This document shows positions 19,636-26,934 of a DNA stretch of 49,379 nt, one piece after another; the first letter of the stretch is position 1; each line of letters begins with the position of its first letter. The stretch lies in NCBI GenBank assembly GCA_013388755.1, contig JACAEQ010000111.1:1-49379 (forward strand), read 5' to 3'. The notes under the pieces were generated by a model, which saw nothing but the letters and a program-made list of their open reading frames with translations, was not told the origin of the DNA and searched no databases. The position numbers were made by a program, and so were the translations under genes. The DNA is from Chloroflexota bacterium. Lineage in GTDB: Bacteria > Chloroflexota > Chloroflexia > Chloroflexales > Roseiflexaceae.

Positions 19636-20193
19636 TCAGATCGGCCACACGGCGTGGCATGTCCACGACCAGTCGTCATGGCGTTCATACAGCCGCACTT
19701 CCCAGGTCGCGCTTGCGTGCGGATCAACCAGTTCGCGCGCCAGCGCGGCCAGTGAGTCATGCTGCTCGGGGGGGAAGTCATACGCCAGGCTCAGGTGCAG
19801 GTTGTCCTTCAGCCGCAACGGCCCGGCATACGCCGGTGAACCGGCGCGCTCGGCAAAGCTGGCGATCACTGATTGCAGCCAGGGCGCATCGATCAACAGC
19901 CCGTGAAACCCATGGTTCAGTTGCATGCCATACACACTGACGGGATGAACCGGTCGTTCAAGCTCGGCGTTCAGCGCGGCATGCATAGCGGCGACATATA
20001 CCGGTATGCGCTCACTCCTGTCGCGAAAGAAGCCGGTCAGCGTACAATGTGGCATGTACCGATGAGCGGTGTTGGGGCCGCACCGGGCGCGCGCGGCGGC
20101 GAAGTAGGCTTCAAGCTGTGCTGCGAGCGGGCCAAGCGGGCACGCATACATAATGTATGTTGACGGTAGCACAGCTAGCTCACGCTGTTCCAT
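19636..20193 (-). CDS. 2H phosphoesterase (LigT/cyclic phosphodiesterase-like), last gene of the phn operon
   Basis: 185 residues. The ATG at 20193 overlaps the end of the upstream acetyltransferase gene by 14 bases, so translation is coupled. Two signature motifs, HCTLTG (His49) and HLSLAY (His133), are the paired H-x-T/S-x of the 2H superfamily. That superfamily includes 2'-5' RNA ligases and enzymes opening 2',3'- or 1'',2''-cyclic phosphates. Canonical phn operons carry phnP for cleaving the cyclic ribose phosphate made by C-P lyase; no phnP is seen here, so this protein is a candidate replacement (inference). It could instead be an unrelated RNA-processing enzyme. Confidence 0.75.
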   Translation of the reverse strand: MEQRELAVLPSTYIMYACPLGPLAAQLEAYFAAARARCGPNTAHRYMPHCTLTGFFRDRSERIPVYVAAMHAALNAELERPVHPVSVYGMQLNHGFHGLLIDAPWLQSVIASFAERAGSPAYAGPLRLKDNLHLSLAYDFPPEQHDSLAALARELVDPHASATWEVRLYERHDDWSWTCHAVWPI

Positions 20194-20842
20194 ATTTCGC
20201 AATGAATGTGCGTACATCATTAAGTTCGTCGAAACGTGCTTCCAGGGTTGCGCGATCCCAGTTCCACCATGCAATCGCCAGCAACTGCTCAGCGACAGAC
20301 GGTGCAAAACGGGGGCGAATGAGGCGCGCCGGTGCGCCACCGACAATTGTGTACGGCGCGACGTTCCTGGTGACCACCGATCCGGCGCCTACCACCGCGC
20401 CCGTCCCGACGCAGACGCCCGGAAGAATGATCGCGCCATGCCCGATCCAGACGTCGTTCCCGATCACGCAGCGGTGCGCTCGCCGCCAGGCGAAGAAGGC
20501 CGTGTCGTCCGCGCCGAAGCCATACTGCGCGCGGCGGTACGTCATGTGGTGCTGTGTAACCCGATCCATCGGGTGATTACCGGGGTTGATGCGCACATGC
20601 GAGGCGATCGATGTGAATTTGCCGATATCGCTATAGATGATCTGCGTGTCACCGGCCGTATAGCTGTAATCGTCAAAGGTTGACTCGGCCATCTGGGTGT
20701 AGGGGCCGAGCTCGGTCCACGCGCCAACACGGCAATCGCGTAGCTGGCATGTGGGATGAATGCTCGGGTAATCCCCAAGCCGGCGCTCGTCGAATGGGTA
20801 TGGCCAGTTATCGCCAGGAAATGCCGGAACATCAATCAACAT
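20180..20842 (-). CDS. Phosphonate-operon hexapeptide acetyltransferase
   Basis: 220 residues starting 6 bases after the phnM stop. Left-handed beta-helix hexapeptide repeats run from about 50 to 175, with GNDVWIGHGAIILPG and VVGAGSVVTRNVAPYTIVGG, as in the VatD/xenobiotic acetyltransferase group. The opening LGDYPSIHPTCQLRDC and the linkage to phnM match the phosphonate-metabolism transferase family found in many C-P lyase operons. The acceptor is not established; by analogy it may acetylate an aminophosphonate or a ribosylated intermediate. It overlaps the downstream 2H phosphoesterase gene. Confidence 0.82.
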   Translation of the reverse strand: MLIDVPAFPGDNWPYPFDERRLGDYPSIHPTCQLRDCRVGAWTELGPYTQMAESTFDDYSYTAGDTQIIYSDIGKFTSIASHVRINPGNHPMDRVTQHHMTYRRAQYGFGADDTAFFAWRRAHRCVIGNDVWIGHGAIILPGVCVGTGAVVGAGSVVTRNVAPYTIVGGAPARLIRPRFAPSVAEQLLAIAWWNWDRATLEARFDELNDVRTFIAKYGTA

Positions 20843-20848
20843 GGGGCA

Positions 20849-22057
20849 TCATCTCATCTGCAATCCACAATGACACTGGAGTTGCCCGCGCCCGGCCATA
20901 TTGCGATCCCAGTAGATCGGGGCGCCGTGACGCAACACGCCGCGCACGCGGGGTAACGCACCATTCTCGATGAGCGTGAGATCGGCATAGCAGCCGGCCT
21001 GAATGCGCCCCCGATCAGGCATGCCGAGCGCGTCGGCGGGATTCAGCGTCACCAGGCGCACCGCTGCAGGAAGATCCAGGATGCCACGCTGGACCAGCGC
21101 GAACACCGCCTGGATCAATGCCGCCGGGGAATAGTCGGATGCCAGCGTATCCACCAGACCGGCAGCGATTGCTTCCTGCGCGCTCAGGTTGCCCGAGTGC
21201 GAACCGCCCCGCATGACGTTCGGCGCGCCCATCACGACATGCATGCCGCGCTGCCGCGCCTCACCGGCAGCTTCGATCGTCACCGGGAACTCGGCGATCG
21301 TGGCGCCCAGCCGGGCGACCAGGTCCACTTTTTCGATGGTATCATCGTCGTGCGATGCAAGCGGAACACCCTTCTCGCTGGCAGCCTCGGCAAGTTCACG
21401 CGCCACCTCCCAGTTCCTGGCGGCAGCGGCAAGGCCGCGCTGCATTCGTTCGCGCATCTCGCGTTCGACGGCGGCGCGATCGGCCTGGCGATGGTTTGCG
21501 ACCCAGTCAATGAACCGCTCAATGTCACGATACTGCCCCTGACCCGGCGTGTGATCCATCAGCGAGACCAGTTGAATCTTGCCTTCGTTGAGTAACTGGT
21601 GCACGAGATCGGCGCTCGTAGGCGTTGACACCTCGTAGCGTGCATGTACGGCATGATCGACCAGCAGTTCTGGTCGCAGGCGGTGCAGTGCCGTCACCGT
21701 TTCATACACTTTTTCGCGACTGCGCGCATGCGCCGGTCTGTCCACATCGTAGAATGAGAGTGCGGCATATGCCGTCGTGACCCCCGACGCCGCCAGGCGT
21801 TTGTCGAGTTCGTGGACGGCCACATCAACCGGGAAGAGCGTGTCGGGGCGCGGTTCGATCTCTTTCTCGACCATGTCGCCATGAATGTCAATCAACCCCG
21901 GCAACACGGTCAACCCATGTGCATCTATGACGCGCACGCCACGCTCCGGCGGCGCGTCGCCCTCAATCACCGCCACGATCCGGCCGTCTTCAATGCGTAG
22001 TGCGCCGCGCTCAATCACATCAGCGGGCAGAATGATGCACGTATCCGTCAGCCACAT
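20849..22057 (-). CDS. phnM: PhnM, alpha-D-ribose 1-methylphosphonate 5-triphosphate diphosphatase
   Basis: 402 residues, the family's usual size. It is an amidohydrolase barrel with PGLIDIHGDMVEKEIEPRP (metal ligands and the PhnM-specific EKE), DHTPGQGQY, SHDDDT, the run NVMRGGSHSGN and LASDYSP, all intact. In E. coli PhnM removes pyrophosphate from ribose-1-methylphosphonate 5-triphosphate to make the PhnJ substrate. It lies 27 bases downstream of phnL in the same operon. Confidence 0.93.
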   Translation of the reverse strand: MWLTDTCIILPADVIERGALRIEDGRIVAVIEGDAPPERGVRVIDAHGLTVLPGLIDIHGDMVEKEIEPRPDTLFPVDVAVHELDKRLAASGVTTAYAALSFYDVDRPAHARSREKVYETVTALHRLRPELLVDHAVHARYEVSTPTSADLVHQLLNEGKIQLVSLMDHTPGQGQYRDIERFIDWVANHRQADRAAVEREMRERMQRGLAAAARNWEVARELAEAASEKGVPLASHDDDTIEKVDLVARLGATIAEFPVTIEAAGEARQRGMHVVMGAPNVMRGGSHSGNLSAQEAIAAGLVDTLASDYSPAALIQAVFALVQRGILDLPAAVRLVTLNPADALGMPDRGRIQAGCYADLTLIENGALPRVRGVLRHGAPIYWDRNMAGRGQLQCHCGLQMR

Positions 22058-22084: not shown

Positions 22085-22771
22085 TCACGCCAGGCGCAAC
22101 TCGCGATCCACCAGGCCGACCACATCGCTGTCGTGATGGAAGACGCCAATCAGCGCGACACCACGCGCCTTCAGTTCGCGCAGACGTTCGATCAACGCCG
22201 CTCGCGTCGTCACGTCGAGCGATGCGGTTGGTTCGTCGAGCAGCAGCAACCGCTGGGGGCGAATGAGCGCCCGCACCAGATTGACCTTCTGCTGCTCGCC
22301 ACCCGAAAATGTTGCCGGATAGGCGTGCCAGATGTCGCGTTTCAGCCTGAATGCTTCCAGCCACTCTGCCGCCTCGCTGCGCGCATCTTCCCACATTCGC
22401 CCGGCCAGCGCCAGCGGCTCGGCGGCCAGGTCGAGTGCGCTGACCCGAGGCCGTGGGTGCAGAAACTGCGTCACATGGCCGATTTCGGAGCGCCGCAACA
22501 GTGCGATATCCACGTCGGCGGCGCGCGCGAGATCACCCGGCCCGTGCAACGAGTCGTACAGAGCCTGGCCGCCGGTCGGTATGCAGGTGCGATACAGGCA
22601 GCGTAGCAACGTCGACTTGCCAACGCCATTCGGACCGCGCACCAGCATGAACTCGCCCGGGTTCAGCCAGAATTCCAGGCCCTCGAAGGCCAGGATCTCG
22701 CGCTCCAGATGGTGGACATGGAAACGCTTGGTATAGTTGTGAACCTCAAGCAATGGCATGGTTCTCGGCAT
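22085..22771 (-). CDS. phnL: PhnL, C-P lyase ABC-type ATPase
   Basis: 228 residues; a second ATG at 22759 is possible. It has Walker A GPNGVGKS, ABC signature FSGGEQQKVN, Walker B LLLLDEP and the H-loop HH near the C-terminus, all complete. The lack of membrane partner and the position between phnK and phnM identify PhnL rather than a transporter ATPase. With PhnK it is thought to bind and drive the PhnGHIJ core. Confidence 0.9.
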   Translation of the reverse strand: MPRTMPLLEVHNYTKRFHVHHLEREILAFEGLEFWLNPGEFMLVRGPNGVGKSTLLRCLYRTCIPTGGQALYDSLHGPGDLARAADVDIALLRRSEIGHVTQFLHPRPRVSALDLAAEPLALAGRMWEDARSEAAEWLEAFRLKRDIWHAYPATFSGGEQQKVNLVRALIRPQRLLLLDEPTASLDVTTRAALIERLRELKARGVALIGVFHHDSDVVGLVDRELRLA

Positions 22772-22815: not shown

Positions 22816-23646
22816 TCACAACTTCGCCGCCACCAGTTGCTGAGTGTAGGCGTCCTGGGGATCATCGAGCACCTGGTCGGTCAGACCATGCTCCACGACG
22901 CGCCCGTGACGCATCACCAGGACACGGTCGGCCAGGGTGCGAATGACGCCCAGATCGTGCGACACAATGATGGTTGCGACATGTAGCTCGCGCTGGATAC
23001 GTTTGAGCGTGTCCAGGACCAGCGCCTGCACCGACACGTCAAGGCCGGTCGTCGGTTCATCAAGCAGCAGCACCATTGGCTGCAACGCGATTGCTTTCGC
23101 CAGTTGCACGCGCTGCTGCATACCGCCCGAAAGCCTGCGCGGGATATCGTCCATGCGCGCCAGGGGGAACTCCGAGGCGTCGAGCGCATCGCGCGCCGCA
23201 TTGCGCAACGTGGCGAACCTGCGTTCACCGGCCATGATGAGCCGCTCGGCGACATTGCCGCTGCTGGTGATATGCATGCGGAGGCCATGCAATGGGTTCT
23301 GGTACACGATACCGATGTGGCGTACCCGTAACGCGCGTCGATCGTACCGATCGAGTGTGAACAGGTTGCGTCCCCGGTAGCCATCTATGGTGAGCGTGTA
23401 GTCGCCCGTATCTGGCGCCTCCTCCAGGTTCAACAACCGGAGAATGGTTGATTTACCCGATCCGGACTCACCCACAATGCCCAGCACCTCGCCAGGGTAC
23501 ACGTCCAGATCGACGCCAGCGACGGCGGGGATTGCGCCATAGTGTTTTGTCAGCCGGCGCGCCCGCAACAGTGGTGCGGTCGTCAGCAGACGTGGCAGAT
23601 CAAATGCCAGCGAGGTCATATCAGGTAAATCCTCAAGCCGTACCAC
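22816..23646 (-). CDS. phnK: PhnK, C-P lyase ABC-type ATPase
   Basis: 276 residues from a GTG 7 bases after the phnJ stop; an ATG at 23619 is an alternative. Walker A GESGSGKS, signature LSGGMQQRVQ and Walker B VLLLDEPTTGLD are intact, and it carries the NPLHGLRMHITSSGN stretch, which I take as PhnK-like. In E. coli PhnK docks on PhnJ in the core complex. Its preservation argues that the altered PhnJ is still assembled into a complex. Confidence 0.9.
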   Translation of the reverse strand: MVRLEDLPDMTSLAFDLPRLLTTAPLLRARRLTKHYGAIPAVAGVDLDVYPGEVLGIVGESGSGKSTILRLLNLEEAPDTGDYTLTIDGYRGRNLFTLDRYDRRALRVRHIGIVYQNPLHGLRMHITSSGNVAERLIMAGERRFATLRNAARDALDASEFPLARMDDIPRRLSGGMQQRVQLAKAIALQPMVLLLDEPTTGLDVSVQALVLDTLKRIQRELHVATIIVSHDLGVIRTLADRVLVMRHGRVVEHGLTDQVLDDPQDAYTQQLVAAKL

Positions 23647-23653
23647 GTTGCCA

Positions 23654-24607
23654 TCACCGGTGATCCGGCTCCTGCTCCTTCAGATAGCCCGGGTGGTAAA
23701 AGGTTCCATCATCATCGTAGTATGTTGCGCCGATCGCAACCGGTTCGCCGCGTGCGCGGCGCACCAGCTTCTCGACGTATCCCGTGTCACTTGCCTGGTA
23801 GCACATACTGCCGTCAGGTTGCGGGATTTCGTTCATGAACTTGTTGACGGCGCCACTCTGCTCACAGATCCGCCCTTGCTGGTTTTCCACCTGAAAGAAC
23901 ACATCTTCAAACTCGATGGGCCGCACGTCGGTATAGGGTGGTACGGCATAGAGCCGTTTCTCGCGCCCCGCCGAGAGCAACGTCAGATGTGCGGCCTGGT
24001 GGAGCATCGGCGTGTCCCAGCGCGGGATCGGGCTTGGACTCATCAGATAGCGCTGGTGAACGACAACCGGGTAACTCGCGCCGGTCATGAACGTTCCGAA
24101 GCGTACAACTTGTTCGTACAGGCCAAGCCACATCAGCGCGTAGTCGGCGTCGGCATGCATTTCGCGCGCCAGCGAGATATTGGGTTCGACAGCGCGTAGC
24201 GGCTCGGGATCCGGCACCTGCAACACCAGCACCTGCCCTTCGCGCAGACGTTCTTCGGTGATGCGATGACGGCTCTGGATGATGGTCGCCAGTTGCGCAT
24301 CGCTGGTTGTCGCCACACCGGTCATGCGGGCAATAAAGCGGCGCAGGTTGACGGCATTGACCGAGTCATCGGCGCCCTGGTCAATCACTTTGACAATATC
24401 GTGTGGCCCGGCAATGCTCAGTGTCACCTGCAGGCCACCGGTACCCCACCCGCGCGCGATCGGTAGTTCACGGCTGGCATACGGCACCTGGTGGCCAGGG
24501 ATGGCGATGGCTTTCAGAATACGCCGGCGCACTTCGCGCTTTGCGAATTCATCCAGGAAGGCGTAACTGTAATCCTGCGCAGGACGCGCCAGTTCGGCGA
24601 GGGTCAT
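23654..24607 (-). CDS. phnJ: PhnJ homologue lacking three of four catalytic/cluster cysteines
   Basis: 317 residues; the ATG overlaps the phnI stop (ATGA). The PhnJ backbone is well conserved: IPGHQVP with the glycyl-radical Gly38, GWGTGG, VIDQGADDSVNAV, RHRI (His114), SPSPIP, AGREKRLYAVPP. In E. coli, Cys241, Cys244 and Cys266 bind the 4Fe-4S cluster and Cys272 forms the thiyl radical. Here CxxC reads Cys248-Glu-Gln-Ser251 and CSDTDYC reads Ala272-SDTGY-Val278. The only cysteines are Cys248 and Cys269, the latter three residues before Ala272. A C-terminal tail of about 35 residues (ATYYDDDGTFYHPGY) extends past E. coli PhnJ. Standard radical-SAM C-P cleavage seems impossible with this set; a different chemistry, cluster or inactive state must be considered. 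Confidence 0.88.
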   Translation of the reverse strand: MTLAELARPAQDYSYAFLDEFAKREVRRRILKAIAIPGHQVPYASRELPIARGWGTGGLQVTLSIAGPHDIVKVIDQGADDSVNAVNLRRFIARMTGVATTSDAQLATIIQSRHRITEERLREGQVLVLQVPDPEPLRAVEPNISLAREMHADADYALMWLGLYEQVVRFGTFMTGASYPVVVHQRYLMSPSPIPRWDTPMLHQAAHLTLLSAGREKRLYAVPPYTDVRPIEFEDVFFQVENQQGRICEQSGAVNKFMNEIPQPDGSMCYQASDTGYVEKLVRRARGEPVAIGATYYDDDGTFYHPGYLKEQEPDHR

Positions 24608-25734
24608 TGTGGTTCTGCTTGCTGCACTGCTGCATATGCCCGGCGGATGGCATCAAGTGAGCTGTTGAAGGTGACATAATGTGGAAGTTTGAAGTGAATA
24701 CAGAAACCGGATGCCTCAACCGCTTCGGTGTGGTAGAGCACAAACTCTTCACGATGGGCGGGATGCGCATTCGCAGCTTCCATTTCGAGGTCCAGCATGG
24801 CACCGGCAATGACCTTGACCTCGTTCCAGCCAATTGTGGCGGTGAAGCCAGGGTTCAGCGCTGCGGGCGGAGCGGCGCCGTTTGTGGATGGATGTGCGTC
24901 GCTGCCGGAGCCGGCCGGCGTAACGACCTCACCCTGGCAGACACGCACGCGCCCCGCGCTGAAGAGTGCCCCGCTGACAGGGTGGCGCAGACGCACGTCG
25001 GCATAGCCGAGACGAACTTCATTGACGGTCGGATGGATCATGCCGTAACCGCGCATGCTGGCATAGCCAAGCGCCAGCACTCCACCGGTGTCGGCACGCG
25101 CCAGCGACTGCAGCCGGTGCGCGCGTGGTGCCGGAAAATGGATCGGATCGCGAGTCACGTCCGGAACGCTGGCTGGATCGTGTGGCGGCAGGTCCGGCAA
25201 GGGCGCAAGCAGTCCGTAACGCCGGTGCCAGTCTGTGAGTGCCGGCGGATGGGGATCAAAGGGAAGATCAGCGGCACCGGTTTTGTCGATCGGATCGCCG
25301 GTTGCGCCATCCGGTGACGCCGGCGCGCTGTCACGCCCGTCGAGTACATCGAGGTGCAACAGCCGGTGGCTGTAATCGAGGGTTGGCCCGAGATACTGGC
25401 CGCCGGGAATATCCTTGAACGCTGCAGAAATGCGCCGCACCGTGAACGTATGCGCTTCGTCGAGCGGCTCGGCGTACGCCAGTCGCGGCTGTGTCGAACG
25501 GTAGGCGCGTAACAGGAGCACTGCCTCATAGAGATCGCCGCCCGTCTGCGCCAGCGCCAGGGCGGCCAGTTCCGGCGCATACAGCGATCCCTCACCCATT
25601 ACCCGGTCGATCAGGTACGGCATATGGCGCTCGATGAGCCGCACGAACGTGGCATCGAATGTCCCATTCAGCTCGCGAAACAGTTGCTCTGCCTGCTGGA
25701 TGGCCCGTTCGCCACCCTTTGCCGCTACATACAT
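24604..25734 (-). CDS. phnI: PhnI, C-P lyase core subunit
   Basis: 376 residues. It opens MYVAAKGGE and has AYRSTQPRLAY, RRISAAFKDIPGGQYLGPT and YSHRLL, all collinear with E. coli PhnI. The C-terminal HFKLPHYV retains the two His that bind zinc in the E. coli core structure. PhnI, with PhnG/H/L, replaces adenine of ATP by the phosphonate. It lies 15 bases after phnH. A Gly/Ser/Ala-rich insertion near residues 270-290 is extra relative to E. coli. Confidence 0.93.
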   Translation of the reverse strand: MYVAAKGGERAIQQAEQLFRELNGTFDATFVRLIERHMPYLIDRVMGEGSLYAPELAALALAQTGGDLYEAVLLLRAYRSTQPRLAYAEPLDEAHTFTVRRISAAFKDIPGGQYLGPTLDYSHRLLHLDVLDGRDSAPASPDGATGDPIDKTGAADLPFDPHPPALTDWHRRYGLLAPLPDLPPHDPASVPDVTRDPIHFPAPRAHRLQSLARADTGGVLALGYASMRGYGMIHPTVNEVRLGYADVRLRHPVSGALFSAGRVRVCQGEVVTPAGSGSDAHPSTNGAAPPAALNPGFTATIGWNEVKVIAGAMLDLEMEAANAHPAHREEFVLYHTEAVEASGFCIHFKLPHYVTFNSSLDAIRRAYAAVQQAEPQ

Positions 25735-25749
25735 TGGTGTATCCGCTCG

Positions 25750-26301
25750 CTACTCGATCATCTCGACCCTGGTTGTACGCGGAAGCCCTATGACCCGGTC
25801 GCCGGCGACGAGAAAGACGTCCCAGCCAAGCGGATAGCGCAGGGTACCGGCGCGGAGCGACCAGAATGCTGCGGGAAGGCCGTCAATCCGTACCTCAATG
25901 GCGCTACGGATACCGGGGCCACGCAGTTCTACTGCAGGCCCACTCCCGATCACACATCCGACCACCAGGGTCGCCGAGTCTTCCGGTGCGACATAATCAC
26001 CGGTGGGCGCGACACGGAGGTGATCGAGATGCTGATCGTGGAGCTGCGGGTAGAACTGGTAGCGCGCCTGCAGTGGCGAGAGGAAGCGCGCCCCTGTGCG
26101 CACCAGCGCAGCGGCGAGGGCGTCGTGTGGTGTGTAGTAGCTGGTTTCCAGGTCAACCAGTGCGTCACCGATTGCGACAAAGGCCGCCAGGCCAGTGTCA
26201 GGAAGCCTCTGTTCTCGCCCGGGATGGCTGAGCGCCCGCATCAACGCAGTAAACGTTACATGATTGCGCTCTTCCTGCGGACTCATCAATGGAACCGCCA
26301 T
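25750..26301 (-). CDS. phnH: PhnH, C-P lyase core subunit
   Basis: 183 residues from the ATG at 26301, close to E. coli PhnH length; an in-frame ATG at 26334 is possible. The family hallmark FTALMRALSHPGR is near residue 17-29, and the C-terminal GWDVFLVAGDRVIGLPRTTRV is also typical. PhnH forms part of the (PhnG-H-I-J)2 core and has no known catalytic residue of its own. Confidence 0.9.
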   Translation of the reverse strand: MAVPLMSPQEERNHVTFTALMRALSHPGREQRLPDTGLAAFVAIGDALVDLETSYYTPHDALAAALVRTGARFLSPLQARYQFYPQLHDQHLDHLRVAPTGDYVAPEDSATLVVGCVIGSGPAVELRGPGIRSAIEVRIDGLPAAFWSLRAGTLRYPLGWDVFLVAGDRVIGLPRTTRVEMIE

Positions 26302-26363
26302 GGTGTTTGTATCCTGGCATACCACTACTGGCATCAACCGGAATCGCACGCCGCCGCTGGCGA

Positions 26364-26780
26364 TCAGAACGTTTCCATCTGCACCCGGGTACGTGCGACC
26401 GCAAGGCACAGCGCGGCATCCGCCTCGGCCTGCGCAGCAGCCTGTGCCGCCACAAATGCTTCGATGTCTGACCGTGCCGTGCTGGCGGTGTATGCCGCAT
26501 CGATCAACGCAATCGCCAGTGCCTGTTGCAGATCGCGCCCCAGGCAGGCCGCATACCCTTCGGCGCCCCTGATGCGCACATGCGCTTCGGCCAGCAGCGC
26601 CTCGCCGGCATAGAATAGCTCACCGCGCACCGTGTCGCGCATCGGCAGCATCACCAGGCCGGTGCGATTCTGCAGAACCTCAATGTCGTCCAGCATCGGG
26701 ATCAGCGCCTCGGCGAATGATTTCACGTCAACCGCCGGAGCGCGTGCCAGAATGCTCAGGTAGGAACTCTGTTCGATCAA
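26364..26780 (-). CDS. phnG: PhnG, C-P lyase core subunit, first gene of the operon
   Basis: 138 residues from a TTG at 26780 with GGGGCGAG upstream, chosen because homology begins at YLSILARAP; a TTG at 26834 would add 18 residues. Diagnostic run GLVMLPMRDTVRGELFYAGE, then EGYAACLGRD and DAAYTAS. PhnG is part of the core complex needed for the nucleosidase step. It leads phnGHIJKLM, with a putative Pho box about 170 bases upstream. Confidence 0.88.
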   Translation of the reverse strand: MIEQSSYLSILARAPAVDVKSFAEALIPMLDDIEVLQNRTGLVMLPMRDTVRGELFYAGEALLAEAHVRIRGAEGYAACLGRDLQQALAIALIDAAYTASTARSDIEAFVAAQAAAQAEADAALCLAVARTRVQMETF

Positions 26781-26934
26781 TCTCGCCCCGCTCTGCGTGC
26801 TCCTACCTGCCTTCCATCCGTCCGCTCCGTACAATGCCGGGCCGGGATAGAGCCTGATATGGCTGATTCTGGCGCCATGCTGCGTCTACCGTGTGAAAGA
26901 GATGCCCAACGTTACATGGCACACTACGACCGGT

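Follow-up and report, generated by a model that had tools for sequence, protein, structure and literature searches.

A conserved clade of PhnJ proteins without the Fe-S and thiyl cysteines in otherwise complete C-P lyase operons

Comparison of PhnJ sequences shows that PhnJ proteins without the C-P lyase cysteine pattern (Cys-less PhnJ) make up a widespread and conserved family, which groups as a single clade and has kept its other active-site residues intact. One member is encoded in a 49,379-nucleotide contig of a Chloroflexota bacterium (GCA_013388755.1, JACAEQ010000111.1), referred to here in its full length as the window. In the textbook view, the cysteines of PhnJ carry out the phosphonate bond-breaking of C-P lyase. 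Complete gene sets with a Cys-less PhnJ therefore mean either that other chemistry operates there or that the accepted mechanism is incomplete. The cleavage mechanism of C-P lyase is an open conflict, and a branch that keeps all but the cysteines offers a ready-made natural test, one member being carried on a plasmid of Thermus thermophilus HB8, a laboratory strain. No description of a Cys-less PhnJ was found in a search that covered mainly the open literature and few subscription papers.

PhnJ of the window

The phnJ gene of the window (23654..24607, minus strand) was identified as an open reading frame of 317 amino acids that matches the PF06007 profile with E=5e-124 and 413 bits, against a curated cut-off of 25, and aligns to Escherichia coli PhnJ across residues 12-279. 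The alignment agrees exactly with the motifs given in an earlier sequence-only reading of this DNA, namely CEQS, A-SDTGY-V and two cysteines, at residues 248 and 269, with no others in the translation. Cys248 (codon 23864..23866, minus strand) corresponds to E. coli C241 and is the sole cysteine shared within the family, being replaced by Asp in some members. At the position of C244 stands Ser251 (23855..23857, minus strand), which is Thr or Ser in 56/56 members of the clade, and at that of C266 stands Ala272 (23792..23794, minus strand), where the clade has Leu, Ile, Val, Ala or Met. The thiyl cysteine C272 is replaced by Val278 (23774..23776, minus strand), with Ala, Gly, Val and others across the clade. 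Cys269 occurs in the window PhnJ alone among the sampled clade and has no counterpart among the four E. coli cysteines. The equivalent of the glycyl-radical Gly32, Gly38 (24494..24496, minus strand), is invariant in Cys-less and canonical proteins, and the flanking backbone motifs are kept, as the same reading had noted; His114 (24266..24268, minus strand), the equivalent of E. coli His108, is likewise invariant in both types.

Among the defining features of a canonical radical-SAM PhnJ, the window protein thus retains Gly32 and is without the complete C241/C244/C266 triad and without Cys272. That it would be unable to run the described Fe-S/SAM/thiyl reaction as written, which the sequence-only reading had argued, is supported. 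All three of C244, C266 and C272 are present in each canonical PhnJ of the sample (44/44), whereas none of them occurs in the clade rows (0/56). An AlphaFold model of the window protein matches E. coli PhnJ with Z 25 at 2.8 A over model residues 11-285, C-terminal domain included, and has a pLDDT of about 90 at residues 241-300. As modelled, the domain that held the cluster has kept its fold, and the ligands are gone.

No second PhnJ was found in the window genome, a 5.08 Mb assembly with a listed completeness of 100%, and dN/dS among Cys-less PhnJ members is 0.03-0.10 over the whole gene. Both results bear on the caveat of the sequence-only reading, that a canonical copy might exist elsewhere with this one in decay, or that resequencing might restore cysteine codons; the dN/dS values and the clade-wide pattern contradict it. 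Evolution is faster in the C-terminal domain than in the core, which is compatible with loss of catalytic duty, but the domain is still constrained (dN/dS of about 0 to 0.2 where computable). A decaying pseudogene, a sequencing error or a mis-assembly can be dismissed with near certainty, being ruled out by the recurrence of the pattern in dozens of independent assemblies, by the dN/dS range and by the intact operon.

Operon of the window

Profile searches recover the full phnGHIJKLM set in the window, all on the minus strand: phnG (26364..26834), phnH (25750..26409), phnI (24604..25734), phnJ, the ABC ATPase genes phnK (22816..23646) and phnL (22085..22771), and phnM, which encodes the RPnTP diphosphatase (20849..22057; TIGR02318 above cut-off). 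The Zn and active-site residues His219, His328 and His333 of PhnI are conserved in the window and in every sampled Cys-less operon, as are the metal-binding residues of PhnM in Cys-less operons, the window included, in agreement with the earlier view of an otherwise intact operon. The operon is without phnN, phnO and phnP. Downstream of phnM lie a phn-associated hexapeptide acetyltransferase gene (20180..20842, minus strand; TIGR03308 above cut-off), of a family common across phn operons generally (PMC12413358), and an open reading frame for a 2H phosphoesterase-like protein (19636..20346, minus strand), which scores below the Pfam cut-off, probably has its true start internal to the reading frame, and is a candidate opener of cyclic phosphates. 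The latter family is also found near six other Chloroflexota loci.

The phosphonate importer is not adjacent to the phn operon in the window genome. A single PhnD/PhnC/PhnE/PhnE-type set, located on a separate contig (L185, G000:C119, 4682-8260) and adjoining molybdopterin moeA-like genes, is the sole clear phosphonate-type importer found in this genome and is unlinked to C-P lyase.

The Cys-less clade

Within a set of 60 genomes of relatives, seven others share the Cys-less pattern, with 76-78% identity to the window PhnJ, and most PhnJ-bearing relatives encode an ordinary four-cysteine PhnJ. A scan of named genomes yielded 80 loci, in which the cysteine pattern is missing from every PhnJ that was read, a count that does not include L104. 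What had been read as a single odd operon is in fact a widespread family, with hosts in the Chloroflexota, Deinococcota and Alphaproteobacteria (Rhodobacterales and relatives of Rhizobiales). Plasmid-borne examples are those of T. thermophilus HB8 (pVV8), Haematobacter (pOT1-5) and Sinorhizobium sp. B11 (p1). Three bins labelled Gracilibacteria, Bacteroidetes and Pleurocapsa (L034, L055 and L059) look mis-binned, as the tree places their Cys-less loci with Chloroflexota.

In a maximum-likelihood PhnJ tree from which the cysteine-bearing C-terminal domain was left out, the 56 Cys-less rows form a single group with an SH-aLRT support of 94, or 96 without Thermus, so that the Ser/Ala/Val-type pattern does define a clade, a point that the sequence-only reading had proposed to check. 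The motif pattern used for labelling wrongly marked one canonical row (L125) as Cys-less, which is the source of a second change counted on the tree. The first branch within the clade is that of T. thermophilus HB8 pVV8 (NC_017767, L140), which has phnCDE and phnGHIJKLM like other members but is plasmid-encoded and is without the long C-terminal tail. The nearest canonical groups come from close relatives within the Chloroflexota (L002-L019) and from haloarchaea, Methylibium and Thiothrix (L142, L146-L148), all of which differ from the clade in keeping all four cysteines. A divergent C-P lyase-like cluster that encodes PhnGHIJKL but no PhnM, along with an ABC transporter of the iron type and a LysR regulator, was observed in Proteus mirabilis pPM35-1 (L143) and Labrenzia pTHAF191b_d (L144); its PhnJ is 37-46% identical to that of the window and keeps four cysteines.

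In comparison to E. coli K-12 PhnJ (PDB 4XB6, 7Z15-7Z19; PF06007), the Cys-less branch shares the fold over residues 11-285, Gly32, His108 and the substrate loop, along with the partners PhnGHIKLM and the zinc histidines of PhnI. Residues invariant in both types include Gly32, Arg40, most of the Gly47-Gly52 (GWGTGG) stretch, Arg107-His108-Arg109, Gln124 and His145. The branch differs from the E. coli enzyme in being without C244, C266 and C272, in some members also C241, in consistently substituted positions, among them two that adjoin the active site (Tyr for F37 and Ser for T106), and in a conserved C-terminal tail that most members carry. The position of Cys241 is Cys in most members and Asp in L045, L053, L054 and L062. 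The PhnJ proteins of L045, L054 and L062 are entirely free of cysteine, which excludes both a cysteine-ligated cluster and a PhnJ thiyl radical in those three members. The 56-row alignment shows neither a new conserved Cys nor a Cys/His pattern common to the clade; His207 is frequent, but five members have Asn in its place, and it lies outside the ligand region.

Gene company and importers

Clusters with a Cys-less PhnJ contain phnGHIJKLM and, as a rule, phnCDE with phnE present once or twice, often the TIGR03308 acetyltransferase gene and, in Alphaproteobacteria, phnF; many of the related operons thus include a phosphonate importer. Genes of a sugar-isomerase/CbiR-like phosphodiesterase family accompany 26 Cys-less loci. 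The genome of the window and two further Cys-less genomes have an unlinked copy, and some Cys-less genomes have none, while five canonical-only Chloroflexales genomes checked gave no match or a marginal one. The copy in the window genome (L202, G000:C97:66816-67622) is a 57% homologue that follows an operon encoding an ABC transporter of the oligopeptide type. Taken together, the 2H phosphoesterase and sugar-isomerase/CbiR-like genes suggest that the product may still be a cyclic or diester phosphate. No gene for a radical SAM protein, an extra lyase or an oxygenase recurs in the Cys-less clusters. PhnP was tried as a discriminator and proved uninformative, as metallo-beta-lactamase matches are sub-threshold in Cys-less and canonical genomes alike.

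In all 13 PhnD proteins examined from Cys-less clusters, the two acidic residues with which E. coli PhnD holds the amine of 2-aminoethylphosphonate are missing. PhnD proteins linked to canonical operons may also miss these acids, both in Halomarina and one in Marivita (SBSPR2 keeps one), and PhnD residues are a weak guide to the ligand. A GpxB-type glycerol-phosphate importer was considered and rejected, since the linked PhnD is nearer to PtxB/PhnD than to the 9lf9 chain, which we take to be GpxB.

Distribution relative to canonical operons

PhnJ was found in 36 of 400 Chloroflexota species, with scores in the Cys-less range (590-684 bits) for 11 of them and in the canonical range (at most 402 bits) for the other 25, the types being assigned by this score gap and the cysteines read directly for a subset. 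None of these 36 genomes contains both types. The Cys-less type was found in 12 of 293 randomly sampled Rhodobacterales genomes, and every one of these 12 carries a canonical-scoring copy as well; given a canonical base rate of about 184/293, this co-occurrence has a p near 0.004 if the two are independent, a value uncorrected for phylogeny. Among the Alphaproteobacteria of the named-genome sets, which were selected for carrying the variant, a canonical PhnJ is missing in three genomes of Haematobacter and in two unclassified bins. The Cys-less operon is so an accessory in Alphaproteobacteria and stands alone in Chloroflexota. A precedent for such coexistence of two C-P lyase operons is Pseudomonas stutzeri, in whose genome White and Metcalf in 2004 reportedly described htx and phn operons with differing substrate ranges.

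Proposed mechanism and alternative explanations

In E. coli, His328 and His333 of PhnI hold Zn at the PhnI/PhnJ interface, with His219 joining in the open state, and PRcP has been modelled at this site with PhnJ His108 contacting the 1,2-cyclic phosphate (PMC9947105). About 30 A separate the cysteine site from Gly32 (PMC9947105), and the distance between the glycyl radical and the Zn site where the product was modelled is 31 A (PMC9947105; PMC7916636). The published cysteine mechanism is hard to reconcile with this structure, and the conflict has been discussed (PMC9947105; PMC7916636).

For the Cys-less operons, we propose an Fe-S-free complex with normal ribosylation and with P-R cleavage at the PhnI/PhnJ Zn site, probably acting on a different substrate, a reading that we regard as having an even chance of being right. 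PhnGHIL would attach ribose from ATP to a phosphonate-like phosphorus compound, and PhnM would trim the ribosylated compound to the 5-phosphate, both as in E. coli. The P-R bond would then be broken at the Zn site without an Fe-S cluster, SAM or a thiyl radical, most likely by metal- and His-assisted attack of the ribose 2'-OH on phosphorus, yielding a 1,2-cyclic phosphate that phosphodiesterases encoded nearby or elsewhere may open. The natural substrate would probably be other than the alkyl and aminoalkyl phosphonates of canonical operons, which is favoured by the co-occurrence with canonical operons (12/12), the altered pocket residues and the different importer, with its PhnD lacking both acids. 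A point against the reading is that a simple alkyl is a very poor leaving group, so that 2'-OH attack alone would not explain cleavage of methylphosphonate. A broader claim, that C-P lyase-type P-C/P-R cleavage may proceed at the PhnI/PhnJ Zn site without the Fe-S/SAM/thiyl machinery, such that the radical mechanism is not the sole one or was misassigned, is advanced tentatively and is rather doubtful.

The proposed change of substrate must be weighed against the mutual replacement of Cys-less and canonical operons in Chloroflexota, which favours the same substrate. There, the variant is the sole PhnJ of its host and no sampled genome has the two types together, as if both could serve the same substrates, such as methylphosphonate, by a different mechanism, with the four cysteines dispensable for C-P lyase chemistry generally. 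The conservation of the Zn site, Gly32 and His108 in both types and the poor fit of the cysteine mechanism to the structure (PMC9947105; PMC7916636) lend this some weight, but the invariance of the cysteines in canonical PhnJ implies that they matter there, the Rhodobacterales co-occurrence argues against redundancy and the residues lining the pocket differ, leaving it an unlikely explanation, if a serious one. Less likely still is a purely structural role, in which PhnGHI and PhnM ribosylate and another enzyme, or none, cleaves the P-R bond. E. coli PhnJ does anchor the PhnK/PhnL ABC dimers and line the PhnI site (PMC9947105), and the C-terminal domain of the variant is less constrained; however, an invariant Gly32, His108 and substrate loop exceed the needs of a scaffold, and the clusters offer no recurring gene for another cleaving enzyme.

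Explanations that preserve the radical chemistry fare worse. The invariance of Gly32/Gly38 would fit a glycyl radical delivered in trans, by a separate activase or, in Rhodobacterales, by the canonical complex, with which the Cys-less operons co-occur and in several genomes are closely linked. This is improbable, as a radical SAM gene does not recur beside the operons, a canonical PhnJ is missing from the Cys-less genomes of Chloroflexota and Haematobacter, and three members offer no cysteine for a thiyl radical. A rearranged cluster, with Cys248 and other ligands in a two-cysteine or mixed-ligand site, had been suggested in the sequence-only reading together with a search for alternative His or Cys269 ligands. 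Most members do retain Cys248, but with Asp at this position in several, Cys269 private to the window, three relatives devoid of Cys, and the old ligand positions hydrophobic or Ser/Thr with no conserved replacement, such a cluster is scarcely credible.

Relevance to phnJ surveys

Since public annotation gives Cys-less genes the name of the canonical enzyme, surveys of aerobic methane production that use phnJ as a marker could count them too. Marivita sp. SBSPR2 is among the metagenome-assembled genomes of a study in which phnJ was taken as evidence for methane production (PMC8774927); in this genome, a canonical and a Cys-less phn operon (L209/L210, G453:C32, ~4.6-29.7 kb) lie next to each other in divergent orientation, and each has a separate phnCDE set. 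Another Rhodobacterales-order PhnJ match (G767:C52:4119-4991) has an in-frame TGA and an intermediate score of 376 bits, with a canonical-scoring copy about 10 kb away.
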